Assembly: GCA_020061705.1 (NCBI GenBank)
Contig: JAGUXT010000032.1
Span: 1 to 64,000, forward strand
Source of the DNA: Halothiobacillus sp.
GTDB taxonomy: Bacteria > Pseudomonadota > Gammaproteobacteria > Halothiobacillales > Halothiobacillaceae
DNA length: 64,000 bases
Direction of reading: 5' to 3'
A program made the position numbers and the translations under genes. The notes beneath the pieces were generated by a model. It worked only from the letters and a program-made list of their open reading frames with translations. It had not been told where the DNA came from and made no database searches. Within the stretch, counting starts at the first letter, position 1; each line of letters opens with the position of its first letter. Below are positions 19,293 through 24,640 of this stretch, one piece after another.

Positions 19293-20570
19293 ATGACCCA
19301 TGTACTCCGCGACGGCTCCGAAGCCGACCTTGCGACACGCTATCTGCTCAATGCCCTGCGCTTTCACACGCAGGCCGACATCGCCGCGCATCTGGGCGTA
19401 ACGGCAAGGGCTGTCCGCCATTGGGCGGTCAAGGAAGAGGTTCCGCAGAAATACATCTTCGGCCTCCAGCGCCTGCTGCCGCTCGAACTGCCCATGAACG
19501 ACGACGCTCCGTTCCGCTTCATCGACCTCTTCGCGGGTGTCGGCGGCATACGCATGGCCTTCGAGGAACTGGGCGGGCAATGCGTATTCACCAGCGAATG
19601 GGACAGCTACGCGCAAAAGACCTATGCCGAAAACTACCCCGGCGGCCACAGCATCCATGGCGACATCACCCAAATCGATGCCGCTGAAATTCCCGATCAC
19701 GACCTGCTGCTGGCCGGATTCCCCTGCCAGCCCTTCTCCATTGCCGGGGTGTCCAAAAAGAACGCGCTCGGTCGCGCCCACGGATTTTCGGACGAAACGC
19801 AAGGCACCCTGTTTTTCGACGTGTGCCGCATCATTGAAAGCAAACAACCACGCGCCTTCCTGCTCGAAAACGTAAAAAACCTCATGTCACATGACAAGGG
19901 GCGCACCTTCGATGTCATCAAACGCTCACTCGACGACCTCGGCTACGACATCCACACCCGCATTATCGATGGCGCGCACTTCGTGCCCCAGCACCGCGAA
20001 CGCATCCTGATTGCCGGGTTCCGCAAGGCGGACAGCATCAGCTTCGATTGGAACGCCCTGCCGCTCCCGCCCAAGGGCACCCACACCCTCGCGGAAATCC
20101 TGCACCGCACGGATGGCCGCGAACCCCGGCTACCGTGGGATGGCGACCGCTTCTTCAACCACGCAAGCCAGCAGGTCGATCCCAAATACACGCTGACCGA
20201 CAATCTCTGGAACTACCTGCAAGGCTATGCGGAAAAGCACCGCGCCAAGGGCAACGGCTTCGGCTTTGGGTTGGTTTACCCGCACAGCGTGACCCGTACC
20301 CTGTCCGCCCGCTACTACAAGGACGGCTCGGAAATTCTGCTCTATCAGGGCGAGGGCAAAAACCCCCGTCGCCTGACCCCGCGCGAATGCGCCCGACTGA
20401 TGGGCTTTCCGGATACCTTCAGGATTTCGGTTTCGGATACGCGGGCTTACAAACAGTTCGGAAACTCGGTGGTTGTGGATGTTATGAGGCACGTCGCAAA
20501 ACTGATGCAGCCCGGTTTGAATGCTGATATCCTGGAACCCGAACTACCACTCCGTTACGCTACCGCTTGA
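19293..20570 (+). CDS. dcm: Dcm-like DNA (cytosine-5) methyltransferase with N-terminal HTH
   Basis: It methylates cytosine in DNA to protect the host from the linked nuclease. Residues ~25-60 (HTQADIAAHLGVTARAVRHW) form a helix-turn-helix, as in methylases that repress their own promoter. The m5C motifs are all present: I FIDLFAGVGGIRMAF, IV GFPCQPFSIAG with the catalytic Cys, VI ENVKNL, VIII QHRERILIAGF, IX LTPRECARLMGF and X KQFGNSVVV. The target-recognition region, with RGNGFG-like and TLSARYYKDGSEIL strings, resembles E. coli Dcm, so CCWGG is the likely target (inference). 425 residues. It is the first gene of a four-gene operon. Confidence 0.88.
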   Translation: MTHVLRDGSEADLATRYLLNALRFHTQADIAAHLGVTARAVRHWAVKEEVPQKYIFGLQRLLPLELPMNDDAPFRFIDLFAGVGGIRMAFEELGGQCVFTSEWDSYAQKTYAENYPGGHSIHGDITQIDAAEIPDHDLLLAGFPCQPFSIAGVSKKNALGRAHGFSDETQGTLFFDVCRIIESKQPRAFLLENVKNLMSHDKGRTFDVIKRSLDDLGYDIHTRIIDGAHFVPQHRERILIAGFRKADSISFDWNALPLPPKGTHTLAEILHRTDGREPRLPWDGDRFFNHASQQVDPKYTLTDNLWNYLQGYAEKHRAKGNGFGFGLVYPHSVTRTLSARYYKDGSEILLYQGEGKNPRRLTPRECARLMGFPDTFRISVSDTRAYKQFGNSVVVDVMRHVAKLMQPGLNADILEPELPLRYATA

Positions 20571-20579
20571 GGTGTTGCC

Positions 20580-20858
20580 ATGAATACCCAATCCCGCATT
20601 CCGAAGCTCAACTCTGCCAGTTTTGACGGCGCCCTGATGTGGTTTGCCGATATGCAAACAAAGGGACTAATGTTTCACCCGGATAATGATCCGGCAGAGA
20701 TATTGCGCATTTGCGATTGGCAACCGATGTTTTCTGACCCTGAAGCTTCCGAAGTTCGTTTCGTGATGAACGAGTTGTTTACCAATTTGGGCGACGAAGT
20801 TTATGCTGCCGCTTACCCGATTGTAATGAACGCATGTGGACTACAGCTTGACGCATAA
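20580..20858 (+). CDS. 92-residue unknown protein inside the restriction-modification operon
   Basis: A small acidic protein of no recognised family, 9 bases after the methylase. GAGGT stands before its ATG, and its TAA overlaps the vsr start (TAATG). It has no HTH, membrane helix or nuclease motif; the N-terminal third is basic-polar and the rest (SEVRFVMNELFTNLGDEVYA) predicts helices. Position suggests a role in regulation or assembly of the system, but nothing in the sequence proves it. Confidence 0.65.
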   Translation: MNTQSRIPKLNSASFDGALMWFADMQTKGLMFHPDNDPAEILRICDWQPMFSDPEASEVRFVMNELFTNLGDEVYAAAYPIVMNACGLQLDA

Positions 20859-21292
20859 TGGCTGACGTAGTCGACAAAGCAACCCGGAGCCGGATGATGT
20901 CCGGCATACGTGGCAAGAACACGAAGCCCGAATTGCTGGTAAGAAAAGCCCTTCATGCGAAGGGTTTTCGCTACAAGCTTCACGCAAATGATCTTCCGGG
21001 AAAACCAGATTTAGTTTTTCCAAAATATCGGACGGTCGTATTTGTCCACGGTTGCTTCTGGCACAGGCATGAGCACTGCAAATTTGCAACAACACCAAAG
21101 ACAAACTCTAATTTCTGGATTGAAAAACTGTCAGCAAACAGCAGACGTGATCAAAGAAACAAATTGCAATTACAGACTCTCGGGTGGCGCGTACTTACGA
21201 TATGGGAATGCGAAATTGACGAAGCGCACCTAACCAAATTAGCGGATACTATTTCAGCAATGGATTCAAATGGCACATCGGCAATTAAATAA
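20858..21292 (+). CDS. vsr: Very short patch repair endonuclease
   Basis: Vsr nicks next to T in T:G mismatches produced by deamination of 5-methylcytosine, and so offsets mutation caused by the linked methylase. Family landmarks are RSRMMSGIRGKNTKPEL, the catalytic Asp in LPGKPDLVFP, and the zinc ligands in VHGCFWHRHEHCKFA. 144 residues is normal. It overlaps the upstream ORF by one base and the downstream endonuclease by 23 bases. Codon and base use is more AT-rich than in neighbouring housekeeping genes, which fits lateral transfer. Confidence 0.92.
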   Translation: MADVVDKATRSRMMSGIRGKNTKPELLVRKALHAKGFRYKLHANDLPGKPDLVFPKYRTVVFVHGCFWHRHEHCKFATTPKTNSNFWIEKLSANSRRDQRNKLQLQTLGWRVLTIWECEIDEAHLTKLADTISAMDSNGTSAIK

Positions 21293-22496
21293 CCTTTTCA
21301 CATATTGCCGCAGCATCGTAAATTCGGCTGGACAGCAGTTGCGTGGAGGAGAGGTTCTTTCCAAGGTACTCAGCAACAACGACGATGCTGGCAGACACGG
21401 AGTCCTCATTCCGACTGAGGCATATGACTTTTTCCCCGAACTGATTATCCCCGACAAGACACACAACCAAACCAATGTATTTGGTGGTTTCGATTTCCTT
21501 GAAAACACACACAAGGAACTCGCATACAAATATTATGAGCGCTACCCGGAACGGCGAATTACTCGACTAAACCCCGCCTTTAACGATAGGCTGCATGGTC
21601 GACGAGTTGCAATTCTCCTTAAGGCCGAGCATCAAGACGGAACTATCGGCTACTACGCGGACATTGTTCGGGAGAAGCTCGATGCCGACTTCCAACCTCT
21701 CTGTTCAGTTCTGTTTGGTGAAAGCATTGCCCTATCAGATGGCGCTTTCTCGATACAGCCAGTCGACTCTCCGATATTTATTCCGGATGATGCTTTAAAT
21801 GACCTTTTAACCCGCTTCGATAAAATATCCGAAATGGGCTGGATAAAATCGTTAAGAGAAGGAGATACAGGAATTGGTTACACATTTGAATCACTTGCAG
21901 GGATCCAAGAAAACAATGACCGGAAAGCCGATTTCCGTGGAATCGAAATCAAATGCAAACAAATTAAGGAATCCGGGGCTGGTGGCGGAAAAATAAATCT
22001 GTTCCAGCAAGCGCCGTGTTGGGAAACAAATCTAAGCGCCTTGGAGCGAATTCGGCTGATTGGCCAACCGGATTTAAATGGCCGCTACGCTTGCCATTCC
22101 CAAGTTACAACCACTAAAAACAACATTGACTTATGGCTGAATCCTTTCGCCACTCCTGCACAAATCGATTTATTGAAAGGCGACACACGCTTTGGTTATT
22201 GGCCTCATTCCATTCTCGCTGAGCGCCTAAAAGAAAAGCATTCACGGGCAGTATTTATCAAAGCCAAGGTAAGTAACACAACTGGAGGCAAGCGCTTCCA
22301 CTACCTGGAACTGATTTATTGCGAGCAACCGTCGATTCGACGGTTCACTGAGCTAGTGCAAGACCGGCGACTGGTATTCGAATTTTTGATGTCAGAAAAA
22401 GAGAATGGAAAAGTCCGAAACCATGGTTATCCGTGGCGACTTTCCAGTGACGAATACTTGAGTGAGTTATTTTCCTTCAGAGTTCAGCTTCGTTAA
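21270..22496 (+). CDS. Restriction endonuclease: EcoRII-N-like domain plus MvaI/BcnI-type nuclease
   Basis: The nuclease partner of the methylase. The C-terminal half (about residue 190 on) has the MvaI/BcnI-family catalytic block TGIGYTFESLAGIQEN, then D in RKADFRGIEIKCK, giving E...D-x(n)-E-x-K. The N-terminal ~190 residues are extra relative to MvaI and BcnI (about 240 residues). By eye they resemble the effector domain of EcoRII (RHGVLIPTEAYDFFP; ERRITRLNP). At 408 residues the protein is also close to EcoRII in size. It likely cuts CCWGG-type sites, perhaps needing two sites. The gene is AT-rich and ends at a shared terminator. Confidence 0.75.
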   Translation: MAHRQLNNLFTYCRSIVNSAGQQLRGGEVLSKVLSNNDDAGRHGVLIPTEAYDFFPELIIPDKTHNQTNVFGGFDFLENTHKELAYKYYERYPERRITRLNPAFNDRLHGRRVAILLKAEHQDGTIGYYADIVREKLDADFQPLCSVLFGESIALSDGAFSIQPVDSPIFIPDDALNDLLTRFDKISEMGWIKSLREGDTGIGYTFESLAGIQENNDRKADFRGIEIKCKQIKESGAGGGKINLFQQAPCWETNLSALERIRLIGQPDLNGRYACHSQVTTTKNNIDLWLNPFATPAQIDLLKGDTRFGYWPHSILAERLKEKHSRAVFIKAKVSNTTGGKRFHYLELIYCEQPSIRRFTELVQDRRLVFEFLMSEKENGKVRNHGYPWRLSSDEYLSELFSFRVQLR

Positions 22497-22553
22497 GCAC
22501 TACGAGGAAATTTTGACTTTTTTAGGTTAATCGTGGGATTTTCAAAAAAAATA

Positions 22554-22576
22554 AAGGCGGCTTTCAAGCCGCCTTT
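22554..22576. terminator. Bidirectional terminator between restriction gene and thiC
   Basis: AAGGCGGC and GCCGCCTT form a perfect 8-bp stem with a six-base loop. T-rich sequence follows on the plus side and an A-run precedes it, so it can stop transcription of the restriction operon and of thiC. Confidence 0.8.
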
Positions 22577-22601
22577 TCTGTTTCACGAGTTCATCGAAAA
22601 A

Positions 22602-24640
<2,039 letters not shown>

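Follow-up and report, generated by a model that had tools for sequence, protein, structure and literature searches.

To our knowledge, UbaLAI is the single characterised example of an enzyme that joins a B3 domain to an MvaI-type nuclease. It reportedly has CC/WGG specificity and a catalytic domain close to that of MvaI, and is said to be stimulated by a second site; its N-terminal domain (UbaLAI-N) has reportedly been proposed to act as a handle which tethers the monomer through two sequential nicks. In EcoRII, the segments KRLSANDTG..GGHQVGLYIP and RNEKRITR of the N-terminal domain, EcoRII-N, are the DNA-gripping arms. UbaLAI is introduced in its published description as a monomeric Type IIE enzyme (doi 10.1093/nar/gkx634). 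Type IIE enzymes are defined in PMC4081073, where BcnI is described as a monomer which cuts single sites strand by strand.

The window (the whole stretch of 64,000 nucleotides of Halothiobacillus sp. DNA that was analysed) contains four consecutive genes, M, S, V and R, and the conserved gene thiC. The features discussed below are the following:

19293..20570, + strand: M, Dcm/EcoRII-type C5-cytosine methyltransferase, 425 aa (PF00145, 8e-87; TIGR00675 dcm, 1.6e-96)
20580..20858, + strand: S, undescribed 92-aa protein between M and Vsr (alignment of seven family members; three-helix AlphaFold2 model)
20858..21292, + strand: V, Vsr T:G mismatch nicking endonuclease, 144 aa (TIGR00632, 1.4e-45; PF03852, 1.4e-32)
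21270..22496, + strand: R, UbaLAI-type two-domain restriction endonuclease, 408 aa (PADLOC PDLC03584 REase_II, 1.4e-149, residues 6-408)
21285..21776, + strand: N-terminal B3-like effector domain of R, residues 6-169 (5O63, E=1.4e-48; Foldseek TM 0.93)
21807..22454, + strand: C-terminal MvaI/BcnI nuclease domain of R, residues 180-395 (PF15515, 5.1e-31; MvaI 2OA9, 1e-7)
21930..21953, + strand: catalytic block of R, D221...E226-I-K228, PD-(D/E)XK (aligned with MvaI PDFHDIEIK)
22602..24491, - strand: thiC, conserved chromosomal neighbour fixing the locus (98% identical in L019)
20500..22600, no strand: swapped segment S-V-R (identity drop versus L019)
L019:6909-7187 and L024:5293-5571: homologues of S

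The original prediction, made from the DNA letters, described R as the join of an EcoRII-like effector domain and an MvaI/BcnI-type nuclease, in one operon with Vsr and a Dcm-like methylase. The matches of M to TIGR00675 and of V to TIGR00632 bear out these operon members. The reading frames of V and R overlap by 23 bp, and the N-terminus of M is weakly HTH-like (around residues 25-61; P22_Cro-like HTH, 0.0011, below the Pfam cut-off).

The reading frame of R is open, intact and of full length, with its catalytic and arm residues. In the C-terminal half, the expected match to PF15515 (MvaI_BcnI) was found in Pfam, scoring 108.9 bits where the cut-off is 25, and the MvaI/BcnI catalytic block is indeed present. 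We take its residues D221, E226 and K228 to be the equivalents of D50, E55 and K57 in MvaI. The N-terminal 170 residues or so receive no label in the Pfam search. An alignment of 20 family members served as input for the AlphaFold2 model of R, which reached a mean pLDDT of 90.8 and a pTM of 0.85. When the full-length model is compared with known structures using Foldseek, UbaLAI-N ranks first (5O63, E=5.7e-19, TM 0.93 by target length), followed by MvaI (2OAA, 1.6e-16), BcnI (2ODI, 3.4e-15) and then the B3 domains of plant ARF/TEM proteins. The extra N-terminal part is thus a separate domain with a B3-like fold, as had been anticipated.

The EcoRII-N profile, PF09217, matches neither the N-domain of R nor UbaLAI-N, even at E<=10, and the label was rejected for this domain. 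EcoRII-N is absent from the Foldseek top 50 for the full-length model, so the motifs, the hhalign comparison and one intermediate sequence provide the link to EcoRII. The two arm segments of R, K32..N37-D38-D39-G41-R42-H43-G44 and Y92-P93-E94-R95-R96, correspond to the two arm segments of EcoRII-N. Profile comparison of the two domains by hhalign gives a probability of 41% (E=2.8e-4), which is weaker than the link through an intermediate, where a family member from Bacillota matches the EcoRII-type N-domain of L019 with a BLASTP E of 1e-8 in a single comparison. Taken with the fold, these comparisons point to a possible remote relation of the N-domain of R to EcoRII-N. The EcoRII catalytic domain, EcoRII-C (PF09019), has no match in R and none in the whole host genome.

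Residues 6-169 of R are about 49% identical to the B3 domain of UbaLAI (PDB 5O63). The join of the two domains is therefore real, and R belongs to an enzyme type that is already known, the UbaLAI type. The suggestion of a new allosteric architecture does not survive, since UbaLAI already has the B3 plus MvaI-type layout and the family is widespread, with 21 loci in one scan. The missing PF09217 match, which makes the N-domain look unlabelled in Pfam, could be taken to favour a wholly new architecture of R, but this reading is refuted by UbaLAI, whose layout is the same, and it now has practically no credibility. The Type IIE logic predicted for R is supported by analogy with this relative.

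The 21 loci come from a scan of genome contigs with an alignment of the N-domain, and are found in Pseudomonadota, Verrucomicrobiota (Opitutaceae), Lentisphaerota, Planctomycetota, Acidobacteriota, KSB1 and Bacillota. At least 19 further homologues of R, from several phyla, are intact or nearly so, and all those with a sufficiently complete gene have the MvaI/BcnI half. In the 20 aligned family members, the nuclease residues D221, E226 and K228 are invariant, as are, in all 20 N-domains, K32, L34, N37, D38, D39, G41, R42, H43, G44 and Y92-P93-E94-R95-R96. The same N-domain alignment found zero loci in viral contigs, and scans with the full-length R as a single protein found nothing in genome contigs or viral contigs. 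The matches to R on plasmids and phages are partial or concern the MvaI/BcnI half only.

Three other MvaI/BcnI nucleases (L004:1051-2232, L005:1015-2208 and L014:715-2160) were considered as UbaLAI-type enzymes and rejected, their N-terminal domain being a different one, of about 150-165 aa, with the motif TKxGDPR; the L014 protein has an additional Glyoxalase_8-type N-terminus. Near the UbaLAI-type R genes of Bacillota (L039, L041, L042 and L044), the only methylases are distantly related ones, about 25% identical to M, with three methylase-like matches at L039. For this reason, the targets of these Bacillota enzymes may differ from CCWGG.

We consider R to be the nuclease component of a CCWGG-specific M-S-V-R restriction–modification operon and a monomeric Type IIE enzyme of the UbaLAI type, with a probability of about 0.87. 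The domains, the fold, the invariant catalytic and arm residues and the operon are the direct basis of this proposal, while CCWGG specificity, the monomeric state, stimulation by two sites and the role of the tether are carried over from UbaLAI, MvaI and EcoRII. M would methylate one cytosine of CCWGG in the host DNA. The two arms of the B3-like domain of R would grip one unmethylated CCWGG site, thereby tethering the protein, and the MvaI-like domain, with its one active site (D221/E226/K228), would bind another CCWGG asymmetrically, nick one strand, turn round and nick the other. Vsr would repair the T:G mismatches which arise from deamination of 5-methylcytosine.

The N-domain could also merely add affinity, or be a relic, in an enzyme that acts on single sites like MvaI. 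The MvaI-like domain of R is complete, and BcnI-like monomers cut single sites (PMC4081073). However, the residues of the B3 arms are invariant in 20/20 sequences down to about 30% identity and are conserved more strongly than most other parts of R, and UbaLAI is classed, in its published description, as Type IIE. Action on single sites is therefore unlikely.

The membership of M in a family shared with EcoRII-type systems, the presence of Vsr and the interchange of R with EcoRII-type enzymes point to CCWGG as the probable target of M and R. The composition of the host genome fits this target weakly. In the 412 kb sampled, CCWGG is mildly under-represented (observed/expected 0.69, rank 4 of 32); in a genome of the same family that lacks this M, and whose base composition differs from that of the host, the ratio is 0.86 (rank 15). 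MvaI and BcnI, which have a common fold and different targets, show that R could have the layout of UbaLAI and another target, such as CCSGG (BcnI-like) or CCNGG. This is quite improbable, because M is of the Dcm family, is interspersed with the methylases of EcoRII loci and travels with Vsr, and because CCSGG is not avoided in the same 412 kb of the host (1.08), whereas CCWGG is.

The same 412 kb of the host (G000) strongly avoid GGWCC (observed/expected 0.12) and also GGSCC (0.34), which suggests another, older restriction pressure of the GGNCC type.

A second genome of the genus (G371) has a homologous system at the same place beside thiC. Its M is 97% identical to that of the window, S 60% and Vsr 67%, but its R (L019:5177-6496) is of the EcoRII type, with a match to EcoRII-C PF09019 of 2.4e-27 and one to EcoRII-N of only 0.012, below the cut-off. 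When positions 19293-22496 of the window are compared with L019:5177-8477, the DNA identity is 92-99% through M and breaks sharply at about 20,500, at the 3' end of M; most of S and V is 48-73% identical, R shows background similarity, and the identity rises again in thiC.

In a third genome of the genus (G370; L077:900-2981), M is 91% identical and continues in frame into an HNH_2 domain, the fusion protein having 693 aa. Such fusions also occur in two more distant genomes, G169 (L020:4205-6280) and G128 (L131). The former is followed by the leftover end of a UbaLAI-type R (73% identical, residues 212-408), the latter by that of an EcoRII-type R (84% identical to the L019 R). In the three fusions, FADSA or FSQAA stands in place of FGNSV, the methylase motif X. 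In a genome from another genus of the same family (G373), thiC and the transporter that neighbours the system adjoin, with no system between them. Upstream of the fusion in G370 (L077:3053-3199), there is only a 49-codon 3' piece of thiC, the 5' part of which is on another contig; this split reflects either a rearrangement or an assembly gap.

The decayed remnants of R at L020 and L131, together with the modest avoidance of CCWGG, could be taken to mean that the R of the window is itself decayed or inactive, and that only M and Vsr matter. Since this R is of full length and all its catalytic and arm residues are intact, we regard its inactivity as very improbable.

When the type of R is mapped as a label on a phylogeny of 28 M proteins, at least 9 changes are needed, the minimum possible being 2. 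The starred branches of the tree alone force 5 changes of the UbaLAI label and 4 of the EcoRII one. Clustering of the labels exceeds that of shuffled labels only modestly (a count as low is obtained in 18 of 200 shuffles), and the M of the window groups with EcoRII-partnered and HNH-fused M proteins at 100/100. On the M phylogeny, UbaLAI-type and EcoRII-type R are thus interspersed partners of one M family. The simplest reading of these sequences is that the effector gene may have been replaced repeatedly behind a retained methylase. We infer that such replacement would be tolerated because the retained methylase already protects the host. The alternative is a transfer in the opposite direction, in which recombination places M next to a resident R.

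The S protein has zero matches in Pfam, NCBIfam, PADLOC and PHROGs. Its family has the motif LxFHP-D-DP, and its three-helix AlphaFold2 model has no significant match in the PDB and only weak matches to phage proteins. Of 369 genomes of the class, four encode S; each of them has the M-S-V-R operon, and within this set S is found only alongside a Dcm-type M, Vsr and an R of the UbaLAI or EcoRII type. It directly precedes Vsr at the UbaLAI-type loci L024, L029, L033 and L034 and at the EcoRII-type loci L019, L124, L126 and L127; at L027, S precedes M. No copy of S is detectable in the operons L025, L032, L035, L123, L125 and others. Distant S-like proteins are encoded on two viral contigs (L138 and L139).

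We give even odds to the following combined proposal: the operon is an exchange site, in which a fixed CCWGG methylase is kept while recombination close to its 3' end exchanges isospecific effectors (monomeric UbaLAI type, EcoRII type, in-frame HNH fusion), and S is a dedicated part of the Vsr-bearing systems, which might for example regulate R or act together with Vsr. The exchange of nucleases and the S protein are more interesting than the enzyme alone. The genus provides a natural experiment, in which one methylase and one genomic site are served by two Type IIE designs, with an HNH fusion in a third genome. The comparison makes it possible to ask what advantage a monomeric tethered nuclease has compared with a dimer, and how one nuclease gene can give way to another without killing the methylase-protected host. 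R also extends UbaLAI from one characterised example to a broad family, whose invariant arm and active-site residues are targets for mutagenesis.

R resembles UbaLAI in its domain order (the second domain of UbaLAI being reportedly of the MvaI type), its B3 fold, its arm residues and the 49% identity of the N-domains. It differs in that it comes from another organism and is known here from its sequence, which matches UbaLAI via the N-domain, and from a model. With MvaI and BcnI (PF15515), it shares the nuclease fold and the D-(E)xK active site, but these enzymes have no N-terminal effector domain. EcoRII (PF09217 and PF09019; PDB 1NA6 and 3HQF) is a dimer, with a catalytic half (EcoRII-C) unrelated to that of R and an N-terminal profile that R does not match. 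It nevertheless has, like R, an N-terminal B3-like effector domain with the arm motifs K-x-LS-x-ND...GH...IP and E-x-RIT-R, and at EcoRII-type loci the neighbouring M and Vsr are of the same kind as at the locus of R.
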